DNA of 37,279 bases. It comes from a virus. Below the pieces are notes generated by a model that was not told the DNA's origin, made no database searches, and worked only from the letters and a program-made list of their open reading frames with translations. A program made the translations under genes and the position numbers. The stretch spans positions 1 to 37,279 of IMG/VR virus record IMGVR_UViG_3300033571_009716, one strand, 5' to 3'. The stretch's first letter is position 1. Each line of letters begins with the position of its first letter. This document shows positions 6,429 to 37,279 of this stretch, piece by piece.

Positions 6429-6433
6429 ATTTA

Positions 6434-6441
6434 AATTTATA
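6434..6441 (-). promoter_or_regulatory. Late-promoter-like TATAAATT before the GT4-like gene
   Basis: The minus strand reads TATAAATT five bases before the ATG at 6428. It is one base off the T4 late consensus TATAAATA. The sequence is simple and AT-rich, so chance occurrence is possible. Confidence 0.3.
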
Positions 6442-6457
6442 AGTCATGGTGTATTAA

Positions 6458-8251: not shown

Positions 8252-8300
8252 CCTGATATATTAAATCAATATCCAGAATAATCAAATGTTTTATTTAAAT

Positions 8301-11165: not shown

Positions 11166-11185
11166 TTTTATGTTTAAAATTGTTT

Positions 11186-13268: not shown

Positions 13269-14041
13269 GGCTTTATTGTTTTTAGTTTGTTTAAAAGTTC
13301 TTTTTCTGTTGGTTCGGGTATTTGATTTACAGTTAATCCGTGTTTTTTAAAAAAAAGTTTCCATTGGTTATTAATTGTTTCTTGTCTTGAACCATCTGGA
13401 CGTTCGGTTTGTAATCGACTTGTTGCGTCTGGATTGTTTTCTATATATTCATCTGAATTTTTAATATCAGCAAACCACCAAAACAAAGAAGAATAATCTT
13501 GTTGAGATTCTCTATAAGCCATATCAATATCAAAAGGATCTCTAAATTGAGTATCATATAATCCATTTTTAAGAAAACAAGAATGATGGTGATATGTAAA
13601 TTCATTACACATGTTTTTATAAAAAGATACACCAATATCTTTTGAATAATTTACAGACAATTTTGGTGTTCTTTTATAAGGTGAACCCGAATCCCAAGAC
13701 ATACTAACATATGAAAAATATTTAATTCCTGATATTTTTGAAGTTTCTATATACTTTTTAAATATATTAGAATTTTTAATAATCATATCATCTTCTATGA
13801 TGAAAATATGTTCGCATTCTCTATTTAGAAGAAAATTAATGGCATCATTTCGACATACGGCTGGATAATAATTTTGATTATGTTGTATCCAATGACAAGC
13901 GTATTTTCCCTCATATTGATTTCCACCATTAACAACAACTAATTCTTCAATATTTGAAAGCGGAAGCGATTCATATAAAGCTTTAAAATATTTTTCTGAA
14001 TTATAAGTTGTTATACCAACGCCAATTTTATTTGTGTTCAT
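13265..14041 (-). CDS. GT2-like glycosyltransferase, paralogue A
   Basis: 258 residues. A family-2 type opening KIGVGITTYNSEKYFKALYE, then CEHIFIIEDDMII (76-88) with the acidic EDD metal site at 83-85, and FWWFADIKNSDEYI in the C-terminal half. The same skeleton, including FRWFADIENSTLYI, occurs in the next gene (14028-14849), so the two are clear tandem paralogues. The C-terminal tail (KKHGLTVNQIPEPTEKELL) is also shared in form. It overlaps its upstream paralogue by 14 bases. Confidence 0.78.
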   Translation of the reverse strand: MNTNKIGVGITTYNSEKYFKALYESLPLSNIEELVVVNGGNQYEGKYACHWIQHNQNYYPAVCRNDAINFLLNRECEHIFIIEDDMIIKNSNIFKKYIETSKISGIKYFSYVSMSWDSGSPYKRTPKLSVNYSKDIGVSFYKNMCNEFTYHHHSCFLKNGLYDTQFRDPFDIDMAYRESQQDYSSLFWWFADIKNSDEYIENNPDATSRLQTERPDGSRQETINNQWKLFFKKHGLTVNQIPEPTEKELLNKLKTIKP

Positions 14042-14849
14042 TATAAATCTTTTTTAAACTTTCAATTACTTCTTTTTCGGATGCTATTGTTTCGGGTCTT
14101 CCATAACCCTGAACAACAGAAAATTTATTTTTACTTAAAAAATAATCTAATGCTCTGACAAAATTTTTCATATAATCATCTTGTGATCTTATTTTACTTT
14201 GATCATGATTTTTAACAATATCTTGTATGTAAAGCGTTGAATTTTCAATGTCAGCAAACCATCTAAACGGAGGATGATATCCTGCTTTTATTATTTGGTA
14301 TGTATGATCTACGTGCTCAAGTGCATTGTAAAAATATTCATCCATGTATCCACATTTATCAATAACATCATAATGATAATAACTAAAAGCACCTAATACG
14401 TTAGAAAATAGACTTATTCTTATTTTATTTGGATAATTTATAGTTGTTTGTATAACGGGGCGACCAAGATGATCCAAATTATGATTACCATGTAAACCAA
14501 AATTAAAATGTTTAATTCCCGTTTCATTTGAAGCTTTAATATATGCATTAAAAACATTATTATCTTTTATAATAATGTCATCTTCCATTAAAAAAATGTG
14601 TTCACATTCACAATCCATCAAATATCGCAATGCTTTATTTTTAGCAACAGCTACACCCTCTTTTCCATTGGTTTTAATGTAACGTATGGAATTTTCTTCC
14701 GAATCTATTAAATCTTTTATAGACGTATTACCATCATCAACAACTACAAAACATTTATCATTGATAGTTTTTATCGAAGAGTAGCATTTTTTGAAAAAAT
14801 CTGGTCTATCACATGTTATTAAACCAAGTCCTATTTTATTTTTTTGCAT
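14028..14849 (-). CDS. GT2-like glycosyltransferase, paralogue B
   Basis: 273 residues, the most canonical of three tandem paralogues. GLGLITCDRPDFFKKCYSSI opens the Rossmann-like nucleotide-binding half; FVVVDDGN (34-41) is the conserved GT2 aspartate strand; CEHIFLMEDDIII (82-94) carries the EDD metal motif at 89-91. FRWFADIENSTLYI matches paralogue A. Uses a nucleotide-diphospho-sugar donor by family; the acceptor is unknown. Overlaps the neighbours by 14 bases on each side. Confidence 0.82.
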   Translation of the reverse strand: MQKNKIGLGLITCDRPDFFKKCYSSIKTINDKCFVVVDDGNTSIKDLIDSEENSIRYIKTNGKEGVAVAKNKALRYLMDCECEHIFLMEDDIIIKDNNVFNAYIKASNETGIKHFNFGLHGNHNLDHLGRPVIQTTINYPNKIRISLFSNVLGAFSYYHYDVIDKCGYMDEYFYNALEHVDHTYQIIKAGYHPPFRWFADIENSTLYIQDIVKNHDQSKIRSQDDYMKNFVRALDYFLSKNKFSVVQGYGRPETIASEKEVIESLKKIYNEHK

Positions 14850-16652: not shown

Positions 16653-17366
16653 TCAATCATAATCTCGCATTCTTTCTTTCATGATGCTAATATTATTGTT
16701 TTTATGTAAATTTCCAGAACATTCTGACATAAACATAAGTTCTCTTGAGTATTTTTCATGTGTTTCATGTACATGTTTTTCTTTTTTAATTCTATTTCTA
16801 AAAGCATTGAAAGCAATTCGAGTAAAATATGAAAATGGATTAGTTCCTTTATCTCTATTATATTTTTTGGCAATTAAAGCTTTCATCATACGTATGACAC
16901 CATCCCCAACCATCTCTTCTCTGTAACTGTAATTAATAAAATTTGGAGCATAACTTAATTTATGTGATATTTTACTTACCATTAAAGCTAAATTATCAGA
17001 CATTTTACCAGTGTCATAATAATTCATAATTTCTTGATCAAATTCAGCAGGTTGAACATAAAATTTTGCTTTGTCACCCGTTGTTTTTCTGCCTCTTTTT
17101 TTAGGTTTATCTTCTTCTGATGTTACATTTTTATCTTTTTCAATGTCTTCGGTAACATCATTATCATCATCATCATCATCATCATGATCATCATCATCAT
17201 GATTAATATCATCGTCATCATCTGTAATTGGTTCATATCGATCATCAAAATTATTAAACGACAAATCATCATCCTCATCATCAAAAACGGGTTCTATGTT
17301 GTTATCAAGAAGTTTTTTTCTTTTGTTATATTTTCGTTGTGCTATATATGTATTTTTCTGTTTCAT
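16653..17366 (-). CDS. 55: Late-transcription sigma factor gp55, with Asp-rich N-terminal extension
   Basis: 237 residues against 185 in T4. The sigma region 2-like core is at about 147-206: EEMVGDGVIRMMKAL, then DKGTNPFSYFTRIAFNAFRN and a basic RIKKEKH. This is the gp55 pattern, which directs host RNA polymerase to TATAAATA-type late promoters. The extra length is a strongly acidic N-terminal segment (about residues 27-75) with long runs of Asp encoded by a GAT repeat, then a basic KPKKRGRK patch. The start region overlaps the end of uvsW by 41 bases in another frame; the first ATG gives a basic N-terminus (KQKNTYIAQRKYNKRKK). Confidence 0.9.
   Translation of the reverse strand: MKQKNTYIAQRKYNKRKKLLDNNIEPVFDDEDDDLSFNNFDDRYEPITDDDDDINHDDDDHDDDDDDDNDVTEDIEKDKNVTSEEDKPKKRGRKTTGDKAKFYVQPAEFDQEIMNYYDTGKMSDNLALMVSKISHKLSYAPNFINYSYREEMVGDGVIRMMKALIAKKYNRDKGTNPFSYFTRIAFNAFRNRIKKEKHVHETHEKYSRELMFMSECSGNLHKNNNISIMKERMRDYD
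17158..17223. repeat. ATC/GAT trinucleotide repeat coding for Asp runs in gp55
   Basis: Nearly pure ATC triplets on the plus strand, read as GAT (Asp) in the sigma gene. Slippage would add or remove whole Asp codons without a frameshift. Confidence 0.85.
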
Positions 17367-24263: not shown

Positions 24264-24793
24264 CCCATGATTTTATCTAAAATTTTATTATGATTTTCGT
24301 AAACTTTATTTACTTCAAAAATAAATTGATCTTCATCTTCAGGTGAAATAACAAGCATAGATCTAATTTTTGTAATTGTTTCCTTTGTATTGTTATATTT
24401 TAAAGAAGAATTGTATTTTATGTGTTTAGAAAGCATTTGACCACCATATACGTCTTTTAACCATTCGACATATACAACAGGAAGAAGCATTAAATCTGAT
24501 TTTTGACCTAATTCATTCATCCATTCAAAATAATGTAAATCGTTGATTGTAAAAACACAACCATCTTTAGCATATTGCATAAGATCATTATTCATCAAGA
24601 ATGATCTAATAAGTTCTCCCGATAAATTCAATCTTTGTTCAATATACATGAAAATTGGTAAAAGATTTTGTAGATATAAAAAATATTTTTGATCGGGAAG
24701 TTCACCTTTTAGTAAAGATACATGAAAAGAATGATTTTCTGAAGAATCATGCAGGTCTTTTGTTTGATGTTTAAGTTTTTCTTGAAAATTCAT
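24260..24793 (-). CDS. ho: Heme oxygenase
   Basis: 177 residues, shorter than cyanobacterial HO1 (about 235). Opens heme to biliverdin, CO and iron with ferredoxin as likely reductant. LKHQTKDLHDSSENHSF at the N-terminus is the heme oxygenase opening with proximal heme ligand His15. YVEWLKDVYGGQMLSKHI is the distal helix with its flexible GG pair. The C-terminal membrane anchor of animal enzymes is absent. First gene of a two-gene operon; the bilin reductase follows with a 4-base overlap, so biliverdin is passed straight to it. The operon is minus strand inside a plus-strand region. Confidence 0.92.
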   Translation of the reverse strand: MNFQEKLKHQTKDLHDSSENHSFHVSLLKGELPDQKYFLYLQNLLPIFMYIEQRLNLSGELIRSFLMNNDLMQYAKDGCVFTINDLHYFEWMNELGQKSDLMLLPVVYVEWLKDVYGGQMLSKHIKYNSSLKYNNTKETITKIRSMLVISPEDEDQFIFEVNKVYENHNKILDKIMG

Positions 24794-24925
24794 ACGTATA
24801 TAAATGTTAATCTATTTTAACAAAATGTCAACTAAATATTAATATGATAAATTTTTTATTAAAAATGTTTTTGTCATTAGAATTTCCAATACGCTTTTTA
24901 AAGATAGAAGAGTAAGTAATATAAT

Positions 24926-25312
24926 ATGAGTAAATTTTTAGAAATTTGTGAAAAAGTGCAAAAGCATCTTCTTGAGCAAGGTGAAAATATCAATGCTAAT
25001 GCAGCACCAGCTGACGGAGCTTCCAATGTAGCTCCCGGTCAGCCAATTCCAGATACCGCTGGAGCACCACAAATAGATCCAAACTCTGCAAGTGAAATTA
25101 AAGTAGTCACAAACGATCAAATCAAAACATTTGTAGCTGCGATGAAAGATTTTTATCAATCAGGAAACGCCATGAGTGGCGATGCCGTAGATCAAATAAA
25201 CAAACTTCCATCAACAGCTACAGATGAAGACATTTCAAAAATTGTCGAAGTATTAACACGAATTTTTCAAGAAACAAATCTTCCTAAAGATACATCTCAA
25301 ACCGATTCTTAA
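24926..25312 (+). CDS. Small acidic protein with possible capsid-targeting N-terminus
   Basis: 128 residues. The N-terminal MSKFLEICEKVQKHLLE is amphipathic and ends in LLE, a possible gp21-type cleavage site (L/IxE). A disordered Ala/Pro/Gly/Asn-rich stretch (20-55) follows, then a helical C-terminal half. Similar architecture is seen in the proteins at 19171 and 26368. An internal head protein or head-core component is possible. No family recognised. Confidence 0.68.
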   Translation: MSKFLEICEKVQKHLLEQGENINANAAPADGASNVAPGQPIPDTAGAPQIDPNSASEIKVVTNDQIKTFVAAMKDFYQSGNAMSGDAVDQINKLPSTATDEDISKIVEVLTRIFQETNLPKDTSQTDS

Positions 25313-25356
25313 TAAATAAGTTGATTTTTTCTAGTTTATTAGTTAATATAATAAAC

Positions 25357-25641
25357 ATGAACAATACAAGTTATAACATTCAAAGTCTTTCAAAGAGTGA
25401 AGTAAAAAATATTCTTGAATCTTTATTATTTGCAGCATCAGTCGATGTTTGCGCTGATTGGTTTAAAGAAAATTCTATAGAAGCACTTAATATTGCAAAA
25501 AAAATAAGGCTTATGTTTCCAGATGTTACATTGGAAAATGTATATGTTTATGATAGTGATGAAAAAGATAAATTTAATGACGAACATACAAACGAAATAA
25601 TTAAATTTTTCCCAGAAATAAAAAAAGAAAAAATTAAATAA
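25357..25641 (+). CDS. Hypothetical protein
   Basis: 94 residues from the ATG at 25357; the frame is open further up to a TTG at 25321 but the extra residues are AT-rich leader. Contains VDVCADWFKENSIEALNIAK and a repeat of acidic/aromatic residues toward the end (EIIKFFPEIKKEKIK). No domain recognised. Followed after 5 bases by the kinase-like gene. Confidence 0.65.
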   Translation: MNNTSYNIQSLSKSEVKNILESLLFAASVDVCADWFKENSIEALNIAKKIRLMFPDVTLENVYVYDSDEKDKFNDEHTNEIIKFFPEIKKEKIK

Positions 25642-25646
25642 TAATT

Positions 25647-26327
25647 ATGAAAATTGCCGTAATTGGAACTCAAAATACAGGAAAATCAACATATATTAAT
25701 GATTTTTTAAAAAAATGGACAATGTATAAAACCCCCGATACGTCATATCGGGATTTAATTAAAGAAAAAAACCTTCCTCATAGTAAAAACGGAAACGAAG
25801 ATAGTCAAAAATTAATTATGGATTGTTTAATTGATCAAACAATTGAATACTCTAAACAAGATTATGTTATTTTAGATCGTTGTGTTCTTGATGTATTAGC
25901 ATATTCAACGTGGCTGTGTTTAAATGATAAAGTATCTGAAAAATTTTTAGACCAACAACGAATATTGGTTAGAGAAACATTAAAATTGTACGATGTTTTG
26001 TTTTTTATACCTTTAACTAAGGCTGCAATTGAAATTGAAAACAATGGAACAAGAAATATTGATCCAATTTATAGAGAAGAAATTGACAATATCTTCAAAG
26101 CATTTCAAGAATCTTATCACAGAGGAGATGGTAGAATTTTTCCAAAAGATGACACACCAGCGGTGATTGAAATTTTTGGTAGTCCAGAAGAAAGAATAAA
26201 ATTAACAGAATTTTATGTTAATCAAGATGGTAAAGGATATGGTGAAGATGACAATTTACTTAATCAAGTCATAGGTGCATCTGAACAAGACCTTAAAAAT
26301 ATTGAAAGAGATATGGGGATTATATAA
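25647..26327 (+). CDS. P-loop ATPase/nucleotide kinase-like protein (NadR/AAA_28 type)
   Basis: 226 residues. Walker A GTQNTGKST (7-15) at the very N-terminus, then YVILDRCVLDVLAYS with the DR pair at 77-78, which in this group replaces Walker B and binds nucleotide. The overall pattern fits NadR-like nucleoside kinase domains common in T4-like phages. The substrate (ribosylnicotinamide, a nucleoside or another small molecule) is not clear. C-terminal 40 residues are acidic with no motif. Confidence 0.75.
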   Translation: MKIAVIGTQNTGKSTYINDFLKKWTMYKTPDTSYRDLIKEKNLPHSKNGNEDSQKLIMDCLIDQTIEYSKQDYVILDRCVLDVLAYSTWLCLNDKVSEKFLDQQRILVRETLKLYDVLFFIPLTKAAIEIENNGTRNIDPIYREEIDNIFKAFQESYHRGDGRIFPKDDTPAVIEIFGSPEERIKLTEFYVNQDGKGYGEDDNLLNQVIGASEQDLKNIERDMGII

Positions 26328-26354
26328 TTTTAATAATAATTGTCAAATATTAGC

Positions 26355-26362
26355 TATAAGTA
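26355..26362 (+). promoter_or_regulatory. Late-promoter-like TATAAGTA
   Basis: Identical to the element at 19148, five bases before the ATG at 26368. By T4 late geometry the transcript would begin at or beside the A of that ATG. Confidence 0.5.
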
Positions 26363-26367
26363 ATAAT

Positions 26368-26808
26368 ATGCTTAAGAAATTTGATTCATATTGTGACAAT
26401 ATTATATTAGAAGGTAGAAATTCCGACGATAAAAAGAAATTTAAAGTCAATATTGAAACAGCTAAAAACCATATTAAAGATATTGGTAACAAATATCATC
26501 ATTATGTTCACGATAAAGGACATTTTGAAGCTTTGTTAGATGAATTAAACCCAAATGACATTTATACTCCTAAAACTTTCATACAACATATTAAAAGTGC
26601 AATGAAAGGTAAAGGTAAGGGTCAAATTGCAGATGGATATGCTAAAATATTATATACATTTTTAAATGATCGTGTAAATTCACCATTTGAAGAATATAAA
26701 GAAACTGAAGATAAAAACGATAATCAACCTGATGGTGATCATGATAAAGAATTAGAAGATGATGGTGGTTATGATGAAAACTTACCCGATGATTTGGGTA
26801 TAAATTAA
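26368..26808 (+). CDS. Hypothetical protein with possible capsid-targeting N-terminus
   Basis: 146 residues from the ATG at 26368, preferred over an upstream in-frame ATG at 26275 that lies inside the kinase gene. N-terminus MLKKFDSYCDNIILE ends in ILE, fitting the gp21 cleavage rule. The middle is basic and helical, with a KGKGKG patch, and the last 40 residues are strongly acidic (DHDKELEDDGGYDE). No family recognised. Possible internal head protein. Confidence 0.65.
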   Translation: MLKKFDSYCDNIILEGRNSDDKKKFKVNIETAKNHIKDIGNKYHHYVHDKGHFEALLDELNPNDIYTPKTFIQHIKSAMKGKGKGQIADGYAKILYTFLNDRVNSPFEEYKETEDKNDNQPDGDHDKELEDDGGYDENLPDDLGIN

Positions 26809-26850
26809 CATATTTCTTGCTTTAGATTTTTATTTTGATAAGATTGTAGG

Positions 26851-27810
26851 GTGAGTAGATTACCTGCAACTTTTGTACTGAATAAATTTTATGCATATTC
26901 GCATGAACCCACGTACCGAAAGTACGATGGAACATATAATGCAGGGTGTCCTATTTGTAAAGAAGGTAAGAGTTTAGGTAAAAAGAAAAGATTGTTTTTT
27001 TACCCAGATTCAAACACTTTTCATTGTTTTAATTGTTCACAAACATGGTCAGCTTATTCTTGGATTAAAAAAGTTTGTAATGTTACAAAAGAAGAATTAG
27101 ATTACGAGATAGCCACAAATAGTTTTTCTTTAGATGTTGATAAAAAAATGGATTTTTTATCTATAAAAAAGAAAGAACTTCCCGATTTACCTTATGATTC
27201 AATTAATCTCTTTGATGAAATTCAAAAACAATATTATAAAGATAATTCAGATTTTAATAAAGCATTAAGATATATCCAAGAACGAAAATTGGACACGGCT
27301 GTTAATAAATCACCTACTTTATTTTTCAGTTTGACTGATTTTCTTCATAAAAATAGGATATGTATACCGTTTTACAACACAAACAAGAAAGTTGTTTTTT
27401 ATCAAACTCGTTGTTTAGATAATTCTATTCCAAAATATCTTGGAAAACAAGGATACGACAAAACTCTTTTTGGTATTGATAGGATAGATCCTCATATCCC
27501 GGCTATTTTTATTTTTGAAGGACCAATAGACGCTATGTTCGTGCGAAATGGCGTATCTGCGGCTGGATTAAATTTAACCGAAACACAAGAAACACAACTT
27601 GCATTATTTCCTTTTCATGAAAAAATATGGGTATTAGATAACCCCAAATTTGATGAAACTGCTGAGAAAAAAACAAGAGAATTTGTTCTTGAAAAGAAAA
27701 AAGTTTTTAAATGGAAACCAGAAATGTCGTATAAAGATTTTAACGAAATGGCTATGTTTGAAGATTTAAATGAAATCAGTTATAAAGTAATACTTGATAA
27801 CTTATATTAG
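26851..27810 (+). CDS. 61: DNA primase, T4 gp61-like, GTG start
   Basis: 319 residues (T4 gp61: 342). Makes RNA primers for lagging strands with the helicase. Zinc ribbon Cys33, Cys36, Cys59, Cys62 (CPIC and CFNC) is followed by a linker and a TOPRIM domain with IFEGPIDAMF (about 224-233) and VLDNP (about 268-272). The Glu and Asp metal ligands are kept. Starts with GTG; no ATG is available before the zinc ribbon. Ends in a 4-base overlap with the convergent gene at 27807. Confidence 0.85.
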   Translation: MSRLPATFVLNKFYAYSHEPTYRKYDGTYNAGCPICKEGKSLGKKKRLFFYPDSNTFHCFNCSQTWSAYSWIKKVCNVTKEELDYEIATNSFSLDVDKKMDFLSIKKKELPDLPYDSINLFDEIQKQYYKDNSDFNKALRYIQERKLDTAVNKSPTLFFSLTDFLHKNRICIPFYNTNKKVVFYQTRCLDNSIPKYLGKQGYDKTLFGIDRIDPHIPAIFIFEGPIDAMFVRNGVSAAGLNLTETQETQLALFPFHEKIWVLDNPKFDETAEKKTREFVLEKKKVFKWKPEMSYKDFNEMAMFEDLNEISYKVILDNLY

Positions 27811-28442
27811 TATTGAGTCCAACCCGAAACTTGTTGTTCAGTATCACGAAGTTTTTTAGGAGCAGTAATAATATAGGTATTAAGAATTTCTTTTAATTTT
27901 TCAATTTCACCAGCAATACGAGTTATCGAATCTGATGCTTTACGTGTTACACCACGAAGAAGACTTCCAGTGCGATCACCGTCTGCAAGAATTTTATGAA
28001 GAGATTCGGTTGATGGATCATTTAAGAAACTAGCAAATTCATCAAGCTTATTTGACCATTCTTTGATACTATTGATAGTTTCTGATGTTACGTCAGGTGA
28101 TACGCCTTGTGTATCAAATTGTTTTGGATCGGTATCTGGTTCTACTGATTTATCAAAAGATTCTTTATCTCCTTCTGGTGTAAATTCAGAAGGTTCTTTT
28201 TGAATAGATTGTTGATCAGCAGCATTATTAGCTACGGGTGCTGGTACAGGAACTTCTTCTTGTTCTTTTAACAAAGAAGATAGAAATCTTGAAACAAAAG
28301 GAACGTGCGATTCACCTAATTCCATTTTTGACATGTTTTGGGTTAAAATTCTATTAACTTCTTTTTTAACCTTTACGTCTGTTTTAGGAACAATGGATTT
28401 TTTCATATTTTTATTTCGCTTGACTTTATTCTTGCAGTTCAT
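27807..28442 (-). CDS. Hypothetical protein, disordered N-terminal half, helical C-terminus
   Basis: 211 residues as given; starts at 28406 (Met13) or 28334 (Met37) are also possible. The first 36 residues are basic. VSRFLSSLLKEQEEVPVPAP recalls the leader-plus-Ala/Pro linker of the protein at 24926. An acidic Ser/Pro/Asp-rich middle (about 75-120) is followed by helices with charged heptads. No family recognised. The only minus-strand gene between the bilin operon and the window end. Confidence 0.65.
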   Translation of the reverse strand: MNCKNKVKRNKNMKKSIVPKTDVKVKKEVNRILTQNMSKMELGESHVPFVSRFLSSLLKEQEEVPVPAPVANNAADQQSIQKEPSEFTPEGDKESFDKSVEPDTDPKQFDTQGVSPDVTSETINSIKEWSNKLDEFASFLNDPSTESLHKILADGDRTGSLLRGVTRKASDSITRIAGEIEKLKEILNTYIITAPKKLRDTEQQVSGWTQY

Positions 28443-28472
28443 TAGTATATTTACATATATTTACCTTTAATT

Positions 28473-29147
28473 ATGTCAAATCTATCAAGTAATTATCTTT
28501 TTGTCATCGCAACTCAACATAATAAACATGATTTTTGGGAAAAATCTCAAATTGCTCTGTATTTGGATAAATCGGGTAATAAAGATAATGCAATAATTGT
28601 ATATGAAAACAAAAAAGGTCTTCCAGCCTTATATAATTCATTTATTAATAAAGAAAATAAAAACAAAAAAATTATTTTTGTACATGATGATGTGTTAATT
28701 GAAGATCTTTTTTTACAAGAAAAACTTGATATTGCTTTTGAAAAATATGATATTGTAGGTTTAGCTGGATCAAAAAAATGCGATCTTTCAAGACCACCAG
28801 CATGGCATTTAATGTCAGATCGTCAGTATCACGTTGGAGAAGTAGCACATTCTAAAGATAAAATATCATGGACAACGTGTTTTGGTACTACAAATTCTAG
28901 AGCTTTAGTGTTAGATGGTTTATTTATTGCTGTTGATATTTCAAAATTACTAAAAACAAATACAACATTTGATGAAAGATTTAATTTTCATCATTATGAT
29001 ATTACTTTTTGTTTAAGAGCTAATAAAAATAAACTTAAAATGGGTATTTATCCGATTAGAGTTGTACATTATGGGTTAGGTGATAGTATGAATACCAAAG
29101 AATGGTATGCGAGTGCTGAATTATTTAAAGAATATTACGTAAAATGA
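28473..29147 (+). CDS. GT-A glycosyltransferase-like protein
   Basis: 224 residues. IIFVHDDVLI (67-76) carries the acidic DxD-type site as HDD, followed by YDIVGLAGS and a C-terminal FDERFNFHHYDITFCLRA, which matches the acceptor-side region of the group related to StrF (glycosyltransferase 2-like family 5). It stands apart from the main glycan block, on the opposite strand, among replication genes. Overlaps the next gene by 4 bases. Confidence 0.75.
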   Translation: MSNLSSNYLFVIATQHNKHDFWEKSQIALYLDKSGNKDNAIIVYENKKGLPALYNSFINKENKNKKIIFVHDDVLIEDLFLQEKLDIAFEKYDIVGLAGSKKCDLSRPPAWHLMSDRQYHVGEVAHSKDKISWTTCFGTTNSRALVLDGLFIAVDISKLLKTNTTFDERFNFHHYDITFCLRANKNKLKMGIYPIRVVHYGLGDSMNTKEWYASAELFKEYYVK

Positions 29148-29515
29148 AATATAAAGATAACAATTTATTTGATTTTATAAATTATGTTTTAAAAAATAGT
29201 AATAACCATCTTAAAAATTATAAACCTCCAATTTTTCTTATTAATAGATGGTTATCAATGGCAACTCCGTCTTTTGTTAAAATTTTAAATTTAACAACCA
29301 ATAAATGGTGTACTAATATTAACGATTTTGACATATCAAAGTTTTATCGAACAGTTTTACCAAAATATGGAAAAAAAATTTCATATATAAAGAAAAATAT
29401 CAAAGAAAAAGAATTGCAAGAAGACGTTAATATGGCATTTATAATGGAATGTTCACAACGTGAAATAGATTCTTTCAATCAAACACTTGCAGAACTTAAC
29501 ATATGTGCTAAATAA
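29144..29515 (+). CDS. 62: Probable clamp-loader small subunit, gp62-like
   Basis: 123 residues against 187 in T4. The pattern LFDFINYV...KPPIFLINRWLSM near 8-38, then ILNLTTNKW and VLPKYGKKISYIKKN (70-84), resembles the small clamp-loader subunit of T4-like marine phages, where a conserved NRxLS block is followed by a short basic helix. The short length and weak similarity leave room for doubt. It is not beside gp44 or gp45, which are absent from this window. Confidence 0.58.
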   Translation: MKYKDNNLFDFINYVLKNSNNHLKNYKPPIFLINRWLSMATPSFVKILNLTTNKWCTNINDFDISKFYRTVLPKYGKKISYIKKNIKEKELQEDVNMAFIMECSQREIDSFNQTLAELNICAK

Positions 29516-29523
29516 ATGCACAT

Positions 29524-29925
29524 ATGGCAACTATACCAAGACCCAAACAAGAAGATCTCATAGGCGGAAAAGTTCAAATTGAAAATTATCAAAGTCAATC
29601 ATTTAATCTTGATGGTTGGAAATTAACAAAAGTATTAGATGATATATTAATGTGTCAATATATAGATCTTAACGAGAATGGCACAGAAATTAAAAGAGGT
29701 AGCATTTGGGTTCCTATTAATGTTATTAATTTCACTTGGAGGTTAGCAAAAATAATTCTTGCTGGACCTGATTGCAGAACCGTTAAAGAAGGCGATATTG
29801 TAGTGTTCCCAAATGATAAAGGCATACAAGTATCTAATCTTAACGGATTAAAAAATATCGTATTTTTAAACGAATCTAGAATTTTTGGTGTTTGTGAATC
29901 AGAAGAAACAAATACTGAAATTTAA
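29524..29925 (+). CDS. GroES-like co-chaperonin (possible gp31 analogue)
   Basis: 133 residues. The C-terminal half follows the GroES beta-barrel: WRLAKIILAGPDCRTVKEGDIVVF (residues about 72-95) with the AGP...GDIV pattern, then NDKG and a final VFLNESRIFGVCE resembling the terminal ESDILAVVE strand. The mobile loop that binds GroEL would be in the less conserved first half. T4 gp31 replaces GroES for capsid folding, and this could do the same. Confidence 0.55.
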   Translation: MATIPRPKQEDLIGGKVQIENYQSQSFNLDGWKLTKVLDDILMCQYIDLNENGTEIKRGSIWVPINVINFTWRLAKIILAGPDCRTVKEGDIVVFPNDKGIQVSNLNGLKNIVFLNESRIFGVCESEETNTEI

Positions 29926-29930
29926 AAATA

Positions 29931-30383
29931 ATGGCAATTGATAATCCGACTAACAATGGATCTAATGTAACGGATTTTAAAAGATTCTTACAATTAAATG
30001 TTGCTGAAGTTGTTTTTGTCAGAAGAAGACGAGCCAAAGATCCATCAGTAACATCCAGAACACGAAGGATGATTTGCACTTTAAATTTTAAAATTCTTAA
30101 TTCTGAGTTTGGAAAAAGAATTTTAAAATTTAAACCAGCCAGACAAAACGCAGAATATTCAGCCGCAAGTAGAGGATTAATTACAGTTTGGGATATTATT
30201 ATGCAAAATTGGCGAGATATTAATGTACAGACGGCGGTTATTATTCAAAAACCAATAACAAACGCAATAGCTTTGCCAATGTTAGTTAATAATGAAAATG
30301 AACTGGCAACGTTTATAGATTATTACGATAAAAAAATTGCAAAAATGACTGTGGGTGAAAAAAGAAAATTCATGGATAGTTAA
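29931..30383 (+). CDS. Conserved-looking hypothetical phage protein
   Basis: 150 residues. An Arg-rich RRRRAKDPSVTSRTRR stretch (31-46) precedes MICTLNFKILNSEFGKRI, and VWDIIMQNWRDINV is a hydrophobic patch with two Trp. By memory, a similar pattern occurs in structural-module hypotheticals of T4-like marine phages. The basic stretch suggests contact with nucleic acid or an acidic protein. No function assigned. Confidence 0.7.
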   Translation: MAIDNPTNNGSNVTDFKRFLQLNVAEVVFVRRRRAKDPSVTSRTRRMICTLNFKILNSEFGKRILKFKPARQNAEYSAASRGLITVWDIIMQNWRDINVQTAVIIQKPITNAIALPMLVNNENELATFIDYYDKKIAKMTVGEKRKFMDS

Positions 30384-30384
30384 T

Positions 30385-30759
30385 ATGACAATATACGGCA
30401 CACCACTAGAAAAAGCTTGCAAACATCTTTTACAAAAAGATATTACAATTTTTATTAAAAATAAAATTTATAAAAAAGGAAAACTTTTACTTTTTTATCA
30501 AAGAAATTTTTACATAACATTTGTTATGAATACTGATAAAAAATTAAAAGATAAAGTAGAACTCCCCATACCATATCATGTAGAATCACATGAAGATGAA
30601 AATTTAATATATTTTGATTATAGAATTAAAACTTTAGCTAAACACGCACCCGAAATTGAAACAAATTTAATTGTATATCCCAAAAAAATAGCTGGAAATA
30701 AGTTTTGGGATAGTATATTATTAATAAATGCAAACTCAAGCGACGAAACTGATATATAG
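30385..30759 (+). CDS. Hypothetical protein
   Basis: 124 residues from the ATG at 30385, one base after the previous stop; a GTG at 30355 in the same frame would overlap it. Beta-rich, with many Lys, no membrane segment. IYKKGKLLLFYQRNFYITFV and LPIPYHVESHEDENLIYFDY are alternating strand-like stretches. Lies between the Arg-rich protein and a zinc-binding small protein in the tail module. No family recognised. Confidence 0.65.
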   Translation: MTIYGTPLEKACKHLLQKDITIFIKNKIYKKGKLLLFYQRNFYITFVMNTDKKLKDKVELPIPYHVESHEDENLIYFDYRIKTLAKHAPEIETNLIVYPKKIAGNKFWDSILLINANSSDETDI

Positions 30760-30985
30760 TGTATTTTCTGGTACATATTATGATGTATTAGAAAAAGATA
30801 TAAAATTATTAGATATTGGACAAATTCCTTTAAAAGCAAAACCATCTAGTAGTTGTAAAAAATGTATAGGGCGTGGTCACATTGGAAGGGATATTAAAAC
30901 ATATGCTTTTGAAATTTGTAATTGTATTAGAAAAAAAATAGATTTTGATTACATTAAAACATTAGTGCCAGAGAATAATGTATAA
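30728..30985 (+). CDS. Small zinc-binding protein (DnaJ-like knuckle)
   Basis: 85 residues. Cys43, Cys46, Cys64 and Cys66 (CKKCIGRG and CNC) form a likely zinc site, the CxxCxGxG portion resembling a DnaJ zinc-finger half. The 5' end overlaps the previous gene by 32 bases in another frame; no later ATG is in frame before the cysteines. Perhaps an assembly factor of the neck-tail module; inference from position only. Confidence 0.65.
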   Translation: MQTQATKLIYSVFSGTYYDVLEKDIKLLDIGQIPLKAKPSSSCKKCIGRGHIGRDIKTYAFEICNCIRKKIDFDYIKTLVPENNV

Positions 30986-30994
30986 TAATAGCCA

Positions 30995-31012
30995 TTCTAC
31001 TAATAAGTAGAA
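30995..31012 (+). promoter_or_regulatory. Perfect 7-bp hairpin just before gp15
   Basis: TTCTACT (30995-31001), loop AATA, AGTAGAA (31006-31012): a perfect short inverted repeat ending four bases before the ATG at 31017, where it could hide the ribosome-binding region. It also contains AATAAGTA (31002-31009), a late-promoter-like octamer. Confidence 0.4.
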
Positions 31013-31016
31013 CTGG

Positions 31017-31772
31017 ATGAAAAATTATACATTTGGTTTTGAAGTACAAACACTTTTAGAACAATTTATCGGTGCTTTTAATGATGTTATTATCAAAAGA
31101 TATGATCACACAAATACCGTAGTTGGACCCACGAGTGGATTTAAAGTATTGTATGTTTATTCACCAAAACAAAGAGTAGTTGCTTCTTTAACCACACCAG
31201 CACCGGGCGGTATGACCGTTCCTGTAATTGCGGTAAGCATTGCTGGTATTTCCAGAGATCAAGCTAGAGTTTTTAATAAAAATGAAGGTTTTGATATACC
31301 TTTTCCAAATTATACAAATGATGGACTTTTAACAAAAAAAATATTACAACCCGTTCCCGTGAACATAACCGTGAACATGTCAATTATTACAAGATATCAA
31401 TTGGATATGGATCAAATATTGACAAATTTTATACCATATTGCGATCCATATATTATCATATCTTGGAAATTACCAGATGGAGATGGTGATCCAACTACAC
31501 ATTTAAACAATGAAATACGTTCAGAGGTTTTATGGAGTGGAAATATAAATTTACAATACCCTGAAAACTTACAACCAACTGCGTCTTTTAGAATAACAGC
31601 AGATACAAGTTTTATAATAAAAGGTTGGCTTTTCAAAACATCAAGTGAAACTGTAAAGAAAATATATACTATTAAATCTGATTATTTTGAAACTGATTTT
31701 TCAGATAACACAGGAAAATTAATTTTAGACTACGATGCCGTTTTTGGTAATCATAATTTACCTAAACAATAA
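31017..31772 (+). CDS. 15: Tail sheath stabiliser, T4 gp15-like
   Basis: 251 residues against 272 in T4. It caps the contracted or extended tail and joins it to the head. Matches to T4 gp15 by eye: a start with F..LLEQFIGAFNDVIIKR, then SIITRYQLDMDQILTNFIPY (128-147), which closely follows the T4 SIFTRYEDDMFQIVEQILPY, and a later FIIKGWLF strand matching FEVNGWMY. Placed upstream of the portal gene, though T4 has genes 16-19 in between, absent here. A hairpin lies before its start. Confidence 0.78.
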   Translation: MKNYTFGFEVQTLLEQFIGAFNDVIIKRYDHTNTVVGPTSGFKVLYVYSPKQRVVASLTTPAPGGMTVPVIAVSIAGISRDQARVFNKNEGFDIPFPNYTNDGLLTKKILQPVPVNITVNMSIITRYQLDMDQILTNFIPYCDPYIIISWKLPDGDGDPTTHLNNEIRSEVLWSGNINLQYPENLQPTASFRITADTSFIIKGWLFKTSSETVKKIYTIKSDYFETDFSDNTGKLILDYDAVFGNHNLPKQ

Positions 31773-31775
31773 ATA
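31768..31775 (+). promoter_or_regulatory. Late-promoter-like AATAAATA
   Basis: Seven of eight bases match TATAAATA, seven bases before the ATG at 31783. It overlaps the stop region of gp15. Confidence 0.4.
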
Positions 31776-31782
31776 TTAAATC

Positions 31783-33660
31783 ATGTATGATTCATTTACA
31801 ATTTTAGCAAAACCTTCTGTAAGAAATGCTAGTCCAAATCAATTGTATGTTTTTTACAATGAACTTTCATCAACACAAAATTTAGATTTTATAATTAAAG
31901 GTGGAACTTTTTTTGAGCTTAGAAATGTTTATGTGAGCGCATCAAATCAATTTATGTTTGATGGAATTACATTTTTTAATCCATTTTCATCAGTTAAAAA
32001 TTTATCATCAGAAAATGTTGGATTCAGTGGTATTGTTGTTCCTGTATTTTTATTTACTGAAAATTATGTAACTTTTACATTACCACAAACACCAATGACA
32101 TCTGGATTTTTAGATGTTATAATAGAAAACGAAGCGGGTTATGGTAAATTAACAACAAATACTAAATTACCAGAATTGAAAAGCGGAATTCAGATTAATT
32201 CTTACGTACCTCCAACACAAACTCCGTCAAAAACACCCGATTATTCATCAACACCCACTCAAACACCAACTACTACGCCTACACCAACCAAAACACCAAC
32301 AAGAACTGCTACTAAAACACCCACACAAACGCCCACAAATACACCTACAACCACACAAACTCGTACACAAACACCAACACCAACTAAAACACCCACATCA
32401 ACTAAAACGCAAACACCTACCAATACTCCAACACAAACAAAGACTCAAACATCAACCCCCACACAAACACCAACAAGAACAGCCACTAAAACACCCACAC
32501 AAACACCCACCCCCACACAAACCCAAACTCCTACACAAACCCAAACTCCAACACAAACACAAACTCCCACATCCACCCAAACACAGACACCCACCCAAAC
32601 ATCAACTCAAACACCAACACCAACAAATACACGCACCCAAACACCAACACGTACTCAAACTCAAACACCAACTCCAACAAAAACTCAAACCCAAACACCA
32701 ACTCCAACTCAAACACCCACAAACACTCAAACTCCAACTCAAACTCCAACTCCAACTCAAACTCCAACACAAACACAAACACAAACACAAACACAAACTC
32801 CAACACAAACTCCATCTGTTTCCGAAAGCGCAACTCCTACACAAACGCCTACACAAACGCCTACAAACTCACAAACACCTACAAATACGCCAACACCCAC
32901 ACAAACACCCACAAATTCACAAACACCTACAAATACGCCAACGCCGTCACAAACGCCTACAAATTCACAAACACCTACAAATACACCAACGCCAACTAGA
33001 ACACAGTCAATATTCCCAATATATGATAATATGGTTGCTTATTGGAAATTAGATGATACATCATGGATAGATTCAACAGGAAATAATTATAATTTATCAT
33101 CCGGTGGTTCTGTTTATAATACAAACGGGTTGATTAACCAAGCTGCTATATTTAATTCCAGCGGTAGAGATAGTTATTTGTATAATAACTCTATAGGAAT
33201 AAATGGTGATTTTACAATTTCGTCATGGGTTAAATATTTCCAATATTCACCAGTAGAAAGACCACAAGTAGCATGGACGCTAGGTGGAAACACTGGTAGT
33301 AATCTCAGTTTATATCTATTCAGTCAGAATAATATAGTGTTTACTGATAGTTATCGCTCAACTAATGTCGTTCAACTTACCGTATTAAACACATGGTATC
33401 ACATCGCTGTTACATACACGGCGGTTACAAACAATTATAAATTGTATACAAATGGTGCATTAGTAACATCGTTTAACGCACTTGCTAGTGTCAATTGGTC
33501 AGGTTTATCTCTATCACAAACAACAATAAATAATATAGCGGGTCAATTTGGTATGAATGGTGCAATTGATGAAGTTGGTGTATGGAATAAACCATTATCA
33601 CAACAAAGTATAATTGATTTATACAATAATGGCGTAGGTTTGACTTATCCGTTTATTTAA
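31783..33660 (+). CDS. Mucin-like Thr/Pro repeat virion protein with LamG-like C-terminus
   Basis: 625 residues in three parts. Residues 1-140 form a beta-rich domain with Ig/IPT-like look. Residues about 143-408 are an almost pure TPTQ/TPTN/TPTPT repeat, without aromatic residues, expected to be extended and disordered or heavily glycosylated. Residues about 415-625 look like a concanavalin/LamG-like jelly roll: YWKLDD near the start, GDFTISSWV, TWYHIAVTY, LYTNGALV and IDEVGVWNKPLS. Such domains often bind sugars. Placed between gp15 and the portal with a late-type element before it, it is probably displayed on the virion for host contact. Confidence 0.82.
   Translation: MYDSFTILAKPSVRNASPNQLYVFYNELSSTQNLDFIIKGGTFFELRNVYVSASNQFMFDGITFFNPFSSVKNLSSENVGFSGIVVPVFLFTENYVTFTLPQTPMTSGFLDVIIENEAGYGKLTTNTKLPELKSGIQINSYVPPTQTPSKTPDYSSTPTQTPTTTPTPTKTPTRTATKTPTQTPTNTPTTTQTRTQTPTPTKTPTSTKTQTPTNTPTQTKTQTSTPTQTPTRTATKTPTQTPTPTQTQTPTQTQTPTQTQTPTSTQTQTPTQTSTQTPTPTNTRTQTPTRTQTQTPTPTKTQTQTPTPTQTPTNTQTPTQTPTPTQTPTQTQTQTQTQTPTQTPSVSESATPTQTPTQTPTNSQTPTNTPTPTQTPTNSQTPTNTPTPSQTPTNSQTPTNTPTPTRTQSIFPIYDNMVAYWKLDDTSWIDSTGNNYNLSSGGSVYNTNGLINQAAIFNSSGRDSYLYNNSIGINGDFTISSWVKYFQYSPVERPQVAWTLGGNTGSNLSLYLFSQNNIVFTDSYRSTNVVQLTVLNTWYHIAVTYTAVTNNYKLYTNGALVTSFNALASVNWSGLSLSQTTINNIAGQFGMNGAIDEVGVWNKPLSQQSIIDLYNNGVGLTYPFI
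32214..33008 (+). repeat. Low-complexity Thr/Pro/Gln coding repeat
   Basis: About 265 codons of ACN and CCN with CAA (Gln), giving TPTQ-like motifs, no cysteine or aromatic codons. It includes an ACACAA run near 32768-32798 and ends with regular 48-base units. Confidence 0.9.
32848..32991 (+). repeat. Three tandem 48-bp units within the Thr/Pro repeat
   Basis: Units 32848-32895, 32896-32943 and 32944-32991, each coding for PTQTPTNSQTPTNTPT or a one-residue variant (PSQ in the third). Recent unit duplication is likely. Confidence 0.85.
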
Positions 33661-33680
33661 TTGATATTTGTTAAAATTAC

Positions 33681-33688
33681 GATAAATA
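33681..33688 (+). promoter_or_regulatory. Late-promoter-like GATAAATA before the portal gene
   Basis: Seven of eight bases match TATAAATA, nine bases before the ATG at 33698. Confidence 0.45.
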
Positions 33689-33697
33689 TAAAGCATT

Positions 33698-35566
33698 ATG
33701 CCTGATTTATTACCAACAAGCAACAGACAACCGGATAGTGGAAAAAGTTTTGTATCATCTATTTTATCAAAACTTCCTTATGTTAATTCTGCTATAGAAG
33801 CCGATGTTAATAATCCAAAATATGAATTATTTCAAAGGCTTTCTAAGAAAAGAGAATTAAGATTAATGCAACAATCGGTTATTGCTGGACCGTACATGGG
33901 AGATAACGCAATGACCCAATATGGACAAAGTTCATTTGGTTCAAATCAACAATATCACAAATACATTTATGCTCAAGTTGATGTTGATAAAGTAAGAAGA
34001 ATTGCAGAATATAGAAGAATGGCTGCTTATGCGGAAGTTAGTGATTGCTTAGATGAAATTTGTGATGAATTTATCAACAAAGATGAAAATGGAAAAGTGG
34101 TAAAAATTAAATTTTCACCTTTTGCTAAATTAGATACAGAACAAAGAGTAGAAATTGAAAAAGAATTTTACAAATTTGTCAATATATACGAATTAGAAAC
34201 AAAAGGTTGGGGGTATTGTAGACAATTGCTTGTTGAAAGTGAAGTTTTTTTTGAAAACATTATACATGAAGATAAAAGAGAATTGGGTATTATAGGAGCA
34301 ATATGCGTTCCATCTGAACTCATTAATCCAGTATATGATAATATTCAAAATAATATAATACAAAATTTTATATTTCAAAAACCAATTAGTTTGCAAAATA
34401 ACAATGCAGCTGCACCGCTACAGCAACCCAACACACCACCACAACCCGCAAATTCCCTCCAACAACAACTTATAACATTTGAAGGTAATCAAATTACATA
34501 TTTTAATTCGGGATTATGGAACGAAGATAAATCAATAAGAATACCATTTATTGAAAATTGTCGCAGAGCATACAAACAACTTTCTTTAATTGAAGATTCT
34601 ATAGTAATATATCGAATGGTTCGTGCTCCAGAGCGTCTTAAATTTAAAATTGATGTTGGTAATATGCCACCTTCAAAAGCGGAAGCTTATCTAAAGCAAT
34701 TAATGCAATCATATTGGAATAAAAAAACATATGATGATGCTTCACCGGGAGGTCAATCTGGTGCAAATATGTATAATCCACAATCAATGTTGGATTCATA
34801 TTGGTTTGCTAGAAGAAACGGTGAAGTTGGATCAGATGTAGAAATGCTTCAAGGTGGACAAAATCTTGGAGAACTCAAAGATTTAATGTATTTTGTTAAT
34901 AAACTCTACAAATCACTTAAAGTCCCACTTACTAGACTTAATCCAGAAGATGGATATAAAGATGGTAGTGAAATATTAAGAGAAGAATTAAGATTTGCCA
35001 AATTTATTGTTCGTTTGCAAGCAAGATTTGCAGAAGGATTAAAAGATGCGTTCATTACCCATTTAAAACTTAGAAAATGGTGGCCTGAATTTAAATTACA
35101 TGAATCTTATTTTCATTTAGAATTTAACGCACCGTCTAATTTCTTTGCAATTAGAAAAAACCAAGAACTTGAACTTAAACTTAAGTTGTTTAGTGATGTC
35201 GCTCAAAGCGAATCAATATCAAAAACATTTGCACAACGTCATTATCTTGAATATAGTGATTCGAAGATTAGTGAAAACATGGAATGGTTGCGTAAAGATG
35301 CTGCACTCACATGGGAATTGGCTCAAATATCACAAACTGGACCAAATTGGAGAGAACATCTCGCAGCAGCTGAAGAAGCAGCAACAAGTGCTGCTGGAGA
35401 AGCCCCTCTGGGTGGAGGTGGCGGCGGATCAGCTATACCAGAAACTACACCTTTGGGCGGAACTGGTGAAACTGGTACACCACCGCCCGAAACAGCGGCA
35501 ACACCCGAAGCTGGAGCAGTTCCAGCAGGTGGAGCAACACCACCGCCAACGGTTTCTTCTACTTAA
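33698..35566 (+). CDS. 20: Portal vertex protein, T4 gp20-like
   Basis: 622 residues against 524 in T4. Forms the dodecameric ring through which DNA enters the head. The gp20 core is recognisable: SIVIYRMVRAPERLKFKIDV, then VGNMPPSKAEAYLKQLM, the WFARRNGEVGSDVEMLQGG block, GQNLGELKDL and YKSLKVPLTRL. A Gln/Asn/Pro-rich insert interrupts the core near residues 228-265, and about 75 residues at the C-terminus are a Gly/Pro/Ala/Thr-rich tail absent from T4. The prohead protease gene (21) that follows gp20 in T4 is not next; a fibre-like gene is. Confidence 0.93.
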   Translation: MPDLLPTSNRQPDSGKSFVSSILSKLPYVNSAIEADVNNPKYELFQRLSKKRELRLMQQSVIAGPYMGDNAMTQYGQSSFGSNQQYHKYIYAQVDVDKVRRIAEYRRMAAYAEVSDCLDEICDEFINKDENGKVVKIKFSPFAKLDTEQRVEIEKEFYKFVNIYELETKGWGYCRQLLVESEVFFENIIHEDKRELGIIGAICVPSELINPVYDNIQNNIIQNFIFQKPISLQNNNAAAPLQQPNTPPQPANSLQQQLITFEGNQITYFNSGLWNEDKSIRIPFIENCRRAYKQLSLIEDSIVIYRMVRAPERLKFKIDVGNMPPSKAEAYLKQLMQSYWNKKTYDDASPGGQSGANMYNPQSMLDSYWFARRNGEVGSDVEMLQGGQNLGELKDLMYFVNKLYKSLKVPLTRLNPEDGYKDGSEILREELRFAKFIVRLQARFAEGLKDAFITHLKLRKWWPEFKLHESYFHLEFNAPSNFFAIRKNQELELKLKLFSDVAQSESISKTFAQRHYLEYSDSKISENMEWLRKDAALTWELAQISQTGPNWREHLAAAEEAATSAAGEAPLGGGGGGSAIPETTPLGGTGETGTPPPETAATPEAGAVPAGGATPPPTVSST

Positions 35567-35597
35567 ACAAATTATTTATTTTAAGGAAGATAAATAA

Positions 35598-35605
35598 TAT
35601 AAGTA
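35598..35605 (+). promoter_or_regulatory. Late-promoter-like TATAAGTA
   Basis: Third exact copy of the octamer seen at 19148 and 26355, ten bases before the ATG at 35616. Confidence 0.5.
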
Positions 35606-35615
35606 TTCCAGAAAC

Positions 35616-37279
35616 ATGGCATCACAAGAACCACCATCAGTAGGTAGTAATTTTTATTTAAAAAAATTAGATGAAAACACAAATTATCTAGCCTATAATA
35701 ATAATTTTATTGATATAAAATCAGTAGAACCTAGTCTAGGTGTACCAACTTCATCAAATTTCCCATTAATAAATTCTGTATATTACTTTCCAGTAATAGC
35801 AAATAAAGCAACGTATAAAGATTCAAGAAGATTTACAACTGGAACAACACCAGTAGTATATTTAGATGGTAATATTGGCATAGGAACAACAAATCCTAAT
35901 AAAACATTAACAATTGTTGGTAACGTAAGTGGTACAAAAAATATAGTAATAGGCGTTGAAAACATTTCAACAGAAGATACATCTTCAATATTAGGAGGTC
36001 AAGACAATAAAACATACGATGAATTTTCAATTATCGGTGGTGGTATTGGTAACATTATTAATGCTGGTTTTGGTTTTATTGGTGGTGGCTTTTATAACGA
36101 AATAAACAATTATAGCGGTTTAATAGTAGGTGGCACTCAAAACGTAATTAATGGAAACGCATCAAATATTAATGGCGGTGGACACAATACAATTGATGGC
36201 GCATCTTCAAACATTAACGGTGGTACATACAATTGTATAATAAGTGATACGGGCGTAATTGCTGGTGGTTTTTCTAACTGCATTGATGCTGGTACTAGTT
36301 CAGTAATCAGCGGCGGTACATGTAACACAACATCTGGAAATTATACAACAATAAGCGGCGGTGGTAATAACTTTTTATCGGGTGATGGGACAACAATTGG
36401 TGGTGGTTCATGTAATAATTCAATTGGATATCAAACGACAATTAGCGGTGGCTATAAAAACACATCAACAACTAATTTTTCAACTATAGGCGGCGGTGTT
36501 TGTAACACCTCTTGTAGTACATATGGAACAATTGGTGGCGGTCAATGCAATACAATTTCTTCTTATTATGGCTCAACGGTTGGTGGTGGTATTTGTAATA
36601 AAATATTTTATGGAATAAATTCAACCATAGGTGGCGGTTATCGCAATTATTCTAATGATGATGGATCTACAATAAGCGGCGGTAGTACCAATTATAATAA
36701 TGGTAATCATGGCACAATAGGAGGTGGTATCTCCAATGCTGTTTTTGGAAAGTATTCAACTGTAGGTGGTGGTGCATTCAATCAAATAGATCCACTTGGT
36801 TGTTTTTCAACAATTAGTGGCGGATATGGCAATTATACAAAAGAAAATTTTTCAACAATTGGCGGTGGTTCCAATAACAGTGCAACTAAACAGCATTCAA
36901 CCGTTTCGGGCGGTTGTGGAAACAGTAATTCCGGTGCATACAGTTTTATTGGTGGTGGTGTTGGTAATAATAATACTTGTTCAGAATATTCAGTAATAGT
37001 TGGAGGAAAAGGCAATGTAATTTCTACTATTGGTCCTTTTCCCGAAGATTCTTATTCGGGAGAAGGTGCCTTTATCGGTGGTGGTCTTTATAATAAAATT
37101 TTTCACAATGAATTAGGAGATTATCCCGATTATGACGAATTAACTAATGATGAATCTTTTTCAGTCATAGTTGGTGGATCTAGAAATTGTATATACGGTA
37201 TACACTCCGGTATTATTGCTGGTAGGAATAACACATTGAGTGGCAGTAATAGTTTTATATTAGGTTCTAATATTACAAC
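35616..37279 (+). CDS. Beta-solenoid tail fibre or adhesin, C-terminus beyond window
   Basis: Translated by hand from the ATG at 35616: open for 554 codons to the window edge. After about 85 residues comes IGIGTTNPNKTLTIVG, a motif often found at the start of tail-fibre and chaperone-linked repeats. From about residue 135 a 13-20 residue motif recurs, of the form STIGGGxxN (also TISGGxxN, SFIGGGxxN), typical of trimeric beta-helical head domains such as YadA-like adhesins. More than 20 copies are visible. Scattered single cysteines follow GGG. It is a probable host-recognition fibre or head decoration; it replaces gene 21 as neighbour of the portal gene. Confidence 0.85.
   Translation, partial: MASQEPPSVGSNFYLKKLDENTNYLAYNNNFIDIKSVEPSLGVPTSSNFPLINSVYYFPVIANKATYKDSRRFTTGTTPVVYLDGNIGIGTTNPNKTLTIVGNVSGTKNIVIGVENISTEDTSSILGGQDNKTYDEFSIIGGGIGNIINAGFGFIGGGFYNEINNYSGLIVGGTQNVINGNASNINGGGHNTIDGASSNINGGTYNCIISDTGVIAGGFSNCIDAGTSSVISGGTCNTTSGNYTTISGGGNNFLSGDGTTIGGGSCNNSIGYQTTISGGYKNTSTTNFSTIGGGVCNTSCSTYGTIGGGQCNTISSYYGSTVGGGICNKIFYGINSTIGGGYRNYSNDDGSTISGGSTNYNNGNHGTIGGGISNAVFGKYSTVGGGAFNQIDPLGCFSTISGGYGNYTKENFSTIGGGSNNSATKQHSTVSGGCGNSNSGAYSFIGGGVGNNNTCSEYSVIVGGKGNVISTIGPFPEDSYSGEGAFIGGGLYNKIFHNELGDYPDYDELTNDESFSVIVGGSRNCIYGIHSGIIAGRNNTLSGSNSFILGSNIT
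36020..37230 (+). repeat. STIGGGxxN-type solenoid coding repeats
   Basis: Degenerate units of roughly 40-60 bases coding for S/T-x-I-x-G-G-G-x-x-N. DNA identity between units is modest, so the repeat is old or under protein-level selection. Confidence 0.8.

Follow-up and report, generated by a model that had tools for sequence, protein, structure and literature searches.

A putative modular adhesin fibre with UspA1-type repeats in a portal-adjacent insertion slot of uncultured T4-like phages

What kind of protein is encoded directly behind the portal gene of a T4-like phage, at a point where the earlier note on this DNA had expected the prohead protease (gene 21)? With its 37,279 bases, the stretch analysed (the window) takes in an entire IMG/VR virus record, and its right edge is therefore the end of the contig. 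The gene in question abuts that edge (35616-37279, plus strand): its reading frame begins with an ATG at 35616, separated by 49 bases from the portal stop, and remains open at the right edge (35616 to >37277), giving 554 codons in the window. The portal gene (33698-35566, plus strand; 622 aa) is of the T4 gp20 type (PF07230, E 1.3e-99; phrog_213), and the fibre gene lies immediately 3' of it, as the earlier note had described. A gp20-type portal, a gp15-type tail sheath stabiliser (31017-31772, plus strand; PF16724, E 4.7e-18) and a gp55-like late sigma factor (16653-17366, minus strand; phrog_234, E 4e-27) are all encoded, and by these sequence markers the virus is a T4-like phage, with a portal 28-33% identical to those of annotated phages over 69-79% of the query (20 best matches). 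Past the Pfam domain, the last ~60 codons of the portal gene specify a C-terminal tail rich in Gly, Pro and Thr. Elsewhere in the window, a minus-strand block (5133-14849) carries glycan-type genes, viz., a glycosyltransferase (phrog_7162), two FkbM methyltransferases, a GT47 exostosin and a Nucleotid_trans protein, along with a family-2 match just under the cut-off and an SMC-like gene (6458-8251) situated among them; a weak match to a GroES-like co-chaperonin (phrog_3188, E 6.7e-5) was seen at 29524-29925, and no tRNA was found in the window.

The complete gene was recovered from a further IMG/VR contig found with the portal (L002), which is identical to the window at 12,606 of 12,606 shared bases (window 24674-37279), represents the window's own virus, and extends 1,960 bases past the right end. 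There the fibre gene occupies 10943-14188 and codes for 1081 aa, and the frame that follows is again fibre-like, with further W-x-x-V-Y repeats, before being cut by the end of L002. Gene 21 therefore lies neither in the fibre frame nor just behind it, and the sequence beyond the edge, where the earlier note had proposed to look, supplies a distinct C-terminal domain (termed HNL in this analysis). The N-terminal domain (residues 1-115; 35616-35960, plus strand), presumed to be the virion-attachment part, is 44-57% identical in six relatives, which identifies the product as a conserved protein and not a chance frame. A search with the whole fibre, of a kind that detects close relatives only, recovered a single locus belonging to the same virus, and annotated phages match only residues 943-1081 (five records). 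No Pfam or PHROG family matches the window part of the fibre at E <= 1, and NCBIfam yields nothing for the full 1081-aa protein at E <= 0.01.

The central region (35982-37259, plus strand; residues ~123-548) is composed of 26 turns, mostly of 15 residues each, 25 with the form GGxxN and one AGxxN. The search pattern was [GA]G..N, giving 27 matches, with one turn matching twice; as glycine is part of this pattern, the GG count depends on it. The stricter GG..N has 26 matches, against a mean of 2.8 and a maximum of 10 in 2000 shuffles. The earlier claim of more than 20 GGG-N turns thus holds for the double glycine and fails for the triple, with only 12 literal GGG..N matches in the window fibre. 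Nine proteins with 180 matches between them give the consensus S-x-[IV]-x-G-G-x-x-N-x-[AIV]-x-G, in which the GG and N are set by the search pattern. The window repeats by themselves match the UspA1 head structure (3pr7) with E 1.3e-16, the full protein does so with E 7.7e-16, and a reversed-repeat decoy has no hits up to E 1. A profile of eight relatives recovers 3pr7 with E 3.1e-34 and another UspA1 structure (3ntn) with E 5e-9, its best stretch (positions 551-793 of 829) probably resting largely on the repeats of longer relatives. In the available text of PMC9543794, UspA1 stands apart among left-handed parallel beta-rolls in having irregular repeats of 15 residues and an additional G at position 9; the fibre fits this description, with a spacing of 15 residues in 18 of 25 intervals and a second glycine in 25 of 26 turns. 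The Pfam YadA head model was not among the hits for the window fibre.

An AlphaFold model (eight alignment rows) also places these repeats in a beta-solenoid, with block means of 80-91 for residues 131-270 and 69-86 for residues 291-440, an overall mean of 69.6 and a poor N-terminus. With the UspA1 homology, this bears out the solenoid that had been proposed from the repeats. Structure comparisons give a more diffuse picture: Foldseek against the PDB has no match to the fibre model at E <= 0.001; VIA structure matches are to other beta-solenoids (8c50, Z 16.4, rmsd 8.6; 3p4g, Z 14.9, rmsd 3.8), with UspA1 absent among the matches listed and no clear single fold relative; and a viral structure library returns nine matches at E <= 0.001, seven being uncultured Caudovirales phage proteins (one of these labelled MTD-N) with TM-scores on the query of 0.22-0.54. 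The model is of a single chain; left-handedness and a trimeric state of the domain would follow from the UspA1 homology.

The regions flanking the beta-roll show that related fibres differ by whole modules. A scan of viral contigs with the N-terminal domain recovered eight loci, namely the seven already known and one on a contig of 225,756 bases that matches the L009 locus exactly (12,330 bases); the domain is always in the first gene after the portal (eight of eight contigs found), and its end (residues ~63-110, with a GNIGIG motif) also matches other fibre genes. The seven proteins sharing this N-terminus contain 10 to 34 GG..N matches and are 601 to 1255 aa long except for L010, which is cut (525 aa), and in this sense the repeat number is variable, as the earlier note had supposed, with the difference that these are distinct viruses and not strains of one. 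The L002 protein carries ~310 residues of stalk absent from L004 and L005, with nine W-x-x-[VITF]-[YF] motifs placed 14 residues apart in seven of eight intervals; the AlphaFold model of the stalk and C-terminal half is unusable (mean pLDDT 33.5). The HNL domain forms the C-terminal end in L002, L004 and L005, whereas the L009 homolog ends in Phage_tail_C (PF24243, E 4.2e-11). The same N-terminus joined to different ends, along with gain or loss of the stalk, supports the reading of a modular fibre. Neither a YadA membrane anchor nor Peptidase S74 has a Pfam hit in the full protein at E <= 1, and the latter is likewise absent from the eight relatives at E <= 0.01.

Eight of 12 long relatives have matches to the beta-roll, the largest of the frames concerned reaching 2971 codons, which indicates that this domain is a module reused in the large proteins of the group; in 6 of the 12, large ORFs with such matches are over 20 kb away from the portal. 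Two such frames, G010 116928-120347 (2971 codons) and G005 135716-139828 (2186 codons), have many matches to the same beta-roll and are 23-29 kb from the portal. Closer by, a frame with at least 10 GGxxN lies within five genes after the portal in 9 of 80 loci (best 80 of 201). In one relative (L090), from a MAG contig that bears the label Chitinophagaceae, the second gene behind the portal is a frame of 2184 aa containing 44 GGxxN; this single contig, which might be mis-binned, is a weak hint of a Chitinophagaceae host.

The gene order of relatives accounts for the position of the protease. Loci were surveyed using degenerate patterns of the window portal, and the best 80 of 201, which are no random sample, were retained. 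The usual order is portal, Ad2 adaptor (phrog_211), head closure (phrog_218, PF08722), protease (PF03420), scaffold candidate and major capsid protein (PF07068). The protease is downstream of the portal in 34 loci (best 80 of 201), invariably with 2 to 12 ORFs in between, as a rule those for Ad2 and head closure; the expectation that gene 21 follows gene 20 directly is contradicted by these 34 loci, each with at least two intervening ORFs. In T4 itself, genes 67 and 68 lie between 20 and 21. A missing or displaced protease is ruled out by this same order and by the presence of the gene in 12 of 12 long contigs tested.

The distance between the portal and Ad2 genes is the variable element. Ad2 is downstream of the portal in 39 of 80 loci (best 80 of 201) and upstream on the other strand in four; the other 37 stop short of any Ad2 gene. 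The gap spans only 6-26 bases in 22 of the 39, and 328-9,516 bases with 1-10 frames (mechanical frames of at least 60 aa) in the other 17. Several loci appear, from their ORF lengths, to be copies or near-copies (L013/L014, L023/L030, L058/L059, L077/L078 and L054/L055/L072, with L002 being the window's virus), and the counts are therefore of contigs, not lineages. ORF clusters were chain-linked, and neither 'f0', which merges several families, nor 'f7', which is joined by repeats, was taken as a true family. The portal-Ad2 slot is thus an insertion site with fibre and lectin genes among its inserts. Annotation rests on ten slot genes from six loci scanned against Pfam: three have LamG; PA14, GLEYA, glycine-rich and RCC1 domains also occur; and five have no Pfam hit. 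In the closest relative with the whole stretch (L004), the order is portal, fibre, sulfotransferase, glycosyltransferase-like gene (our label, as the matched phrog_8954 carries no function), Ad2, head closure and protease. A minus-strand pair of sulfotransferase (PF13469) and glycosyltransferase-like genes adjoins the fibre or portal in L003 (12113-13857), L004, L009, L011 and others. We found no published account of an adhesin slot between portal and Ad2 in the literature searched, which is no proof that none exists.

The fibre gene is preceded by a candidate late-type promoter (35590-35606, plus strand), with ATAAATA at 35590-35596 and TATAAGTAT at 35598-35606. Over the full window, ATAAATA shows no excess (24 found versus 41.6 expected); what is unusual is where it stands in relation to late genes. 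It occurs within 60 nt upstream of the starts of portal (36 of 77), protease (19 of 37) and Ad2 (17 of 43) genes, against a background of 1.5%, with corresponding counts of 0 of 40 for head closure, 2 of 27 for capsid and 3 of 30 for scaffold-candidate genes. TATAA[AG]TA, a pattern picked after viewing the sequences, is found within 60 nt upstream of six of seven GGxxN fibre genes (background 0.7%). The position of ATAAATA before late genes, the TATAA[AG]TA matches at fibre genes and the gp55-like sigma factor in the contig make the earlier proposal of a late promoter here plausible and, as a prediction, likely.

The notion that the repeats offer a ready substrate for recombination fares less well. 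The 26 aligned 45-nt DNA units have a mean identity of 49% (maximum 71%), exact repeats reach at most 16 nt, and Tandem Repeats Finder (TRF) detects no array in the fibre gene; what stands of the idea is a set of diverged direct repeats in six families, with members 60-95% identical to a reference copy, and the case for it is weak. A recent tandem duplication is ruled out by the DNA identity and the lack of a TRF array. The neighbor between the sheath stabiliser and portal genes (31783-33660, plus strand) codes for a T[PQ]T-repeat stalk with a C-terminal lectin-like LamG domain (PF13385, E 1.8e-15) and is probably a second adhesin beside the portal; its DNA, with tandem repeats comprising a 27-nt exact repeat and TRF arrays, is more repetitive than that of the fibre gene and suits the recombination idea better. 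T[PQ]T-rich genes precede the portal in several relatives.

Taken together, we consider it probable that the gene encodes a long, modular, late-expressed virion adhesin fibre for binding the host surface, situated in a portal-adjacent adhesin island. The conserved N-terminal domain would fix the fibre to the particle; the ~26 turns of UspA1/YadA-type left-handed beta-roll would form a stiff rod or head; the 14-residue W-x-x-V-Y repeats should form a coiled-coil stalk; and the small C-terminal HNL domain, resembling the end of a capsid decoration protein, would be the tip. The gene occupies the insertion site that separates portal and head-tail adaptor genes, at which this group gains and loses fibre and lectin genes, accompanied in some relatives by those for a sulfotransferase and a glycosyltransferase-like protein. 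The most likely role of the fibre is attachment to the host surface, or to glycans on it, at adsorption.

The role of the beta-roll within such a fibre admits other readings. It might be a spacer that sets the length of the fibre without itself binding, with only the C-terminal domain touching the host. The range of repeat numbers behind a common N-terminus, the separate variation of the C-terminal module and the gain or loss of the stalk stretch would all suit this; however, the relatives of known structure in the available portion of PMC9543794 are adhesin heads from bacteria, and rod and binding part are inseparable by sequence alone, which leaves the spacer a possible but doubtful reading. 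Alternatively, the target of the repeats might be ice or some other ordered surface, by analogy with an ice-recrystallisation inhibitor of grass that has a related fold: the eight-relative profile does match that protein (3ult, E 1.6e-5), and LbR_Ice_bind (PF21300) exceeds its cut-off in one relative (L003, 31.9 versus 30 bits). Yet the profile matches UspA1 far better, L005, L010 and L038 fall below the cut-off, the window protein has no hit to this family, and the shared signal may merely reflect the shared fold, all of which render this very improbable.

A further alternative concerns the place of the fibre on the virion, and arises from the distribution of the HNL domain. This domain is also found inside the Ad2 protein of eight loci, all among the 22 with no portal-Ad2 insert (best 80 of 201); they are L049, L050, L052, L053, L054, L055, L060 and L072, with one copy each except for two in L053, that in L060 being truncated where the contig stops. 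These Ad2 copies were among the sequences behind the HNL profile, the Ad2 match having first been found by BLAST with the fibre alone. The profile matches the end of a PDB entry named 'Capsid decoration protein' (9nx3, E 9.3e-4), and the HNL-bearing Ad2 proteins match phrog_2647 ('head decoration'). Its presence in a neck adaptor and its likeness to a capsid decoration protein suggest that the fibre could sit on the head or neck, not the tail, as a whisker- or decoration-like element at the portal/neck vertex or capsid that aids attachment to surfaces or glycans and is not the tail receptor-binding protein. The portal and neck genes flanking the slot favor such a placement, but gene position is weak evidence for virion place, the L009 homolog ends in Phage_tail_C, and the beta-roll repeats also occur far from the portal in half of the long relatives; we regard it as unlikely. 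More broadly, we tentatively suggest that the two flanks of the portal may be a second host-recognition cluster in a group of uncultured T4-like phages, wherein UspA1-type beta-roll adhesins are exchanged and the HNL tip switches between free fibres and an Ad2 loop, such that some slot-empty phages would carry the tip on the neck. If HNL does alternate between fibre and neck adaptor, it would be a testable case of one binding module at different virion sites.

The portal-Ad2 interval is an easily recognised slot for seeking the host-binding genes of this group in metagenomes, and through its repeats the fibre ties the 15-residue beta-roll of UspA1, itself an unusual head among bacterial adhesins, to fibres of uncultured phages. 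Its closest known counterpart is the head of Moraxella catarrhalis UspA1 (3PR7), a YadA-like left-handed parallel beta-roll, with which it shares ~15-residue repeats, a double glycine, an Asn four residues after the first Gly and a preceding S-T-I. Unlike UspA1, the phage protein lacks the YadA membrane anchor, and its beta-roll follows a phage N-terminal domain and is joined behind to a presumed coiled-coil stalk with an HNL tip, in a T4-like phage gene adjoining the portal. T4-type portals distant from annotated phages and a T4-like structural block are also features of the Far-T4 phages of freshwater viromes, as given in the accessible text of PMC4360716. The host recognition cluster of pelagimyophages and cyanomyophages, as outlined in the part of PMC7029224 at hand, is a hypervariable region within the structural genes, with tail fibres and glycosyltransferases, between VrlC and the neck gene gp14, and concanavalin- and YadA-domain proteins are reported there in the structural operon; both are variable islands with fibres, but the present slot lies between portal and Ad2. 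In the consulted text of PMC3909814, marine phages have tail fibres with YadA-like domains, of T7 type with an N-terminal PF03906, one having a C-terminal YadA part; common to these and the window fibre is a YadA-like part in a phage fibre encoded in a variable host-recognition region, while the latter differs in having no known fibre family match and its beta-roll in the middle. YadA-like parts in phage fibres are thus already known from that source, and it is the location seen here that is informative.
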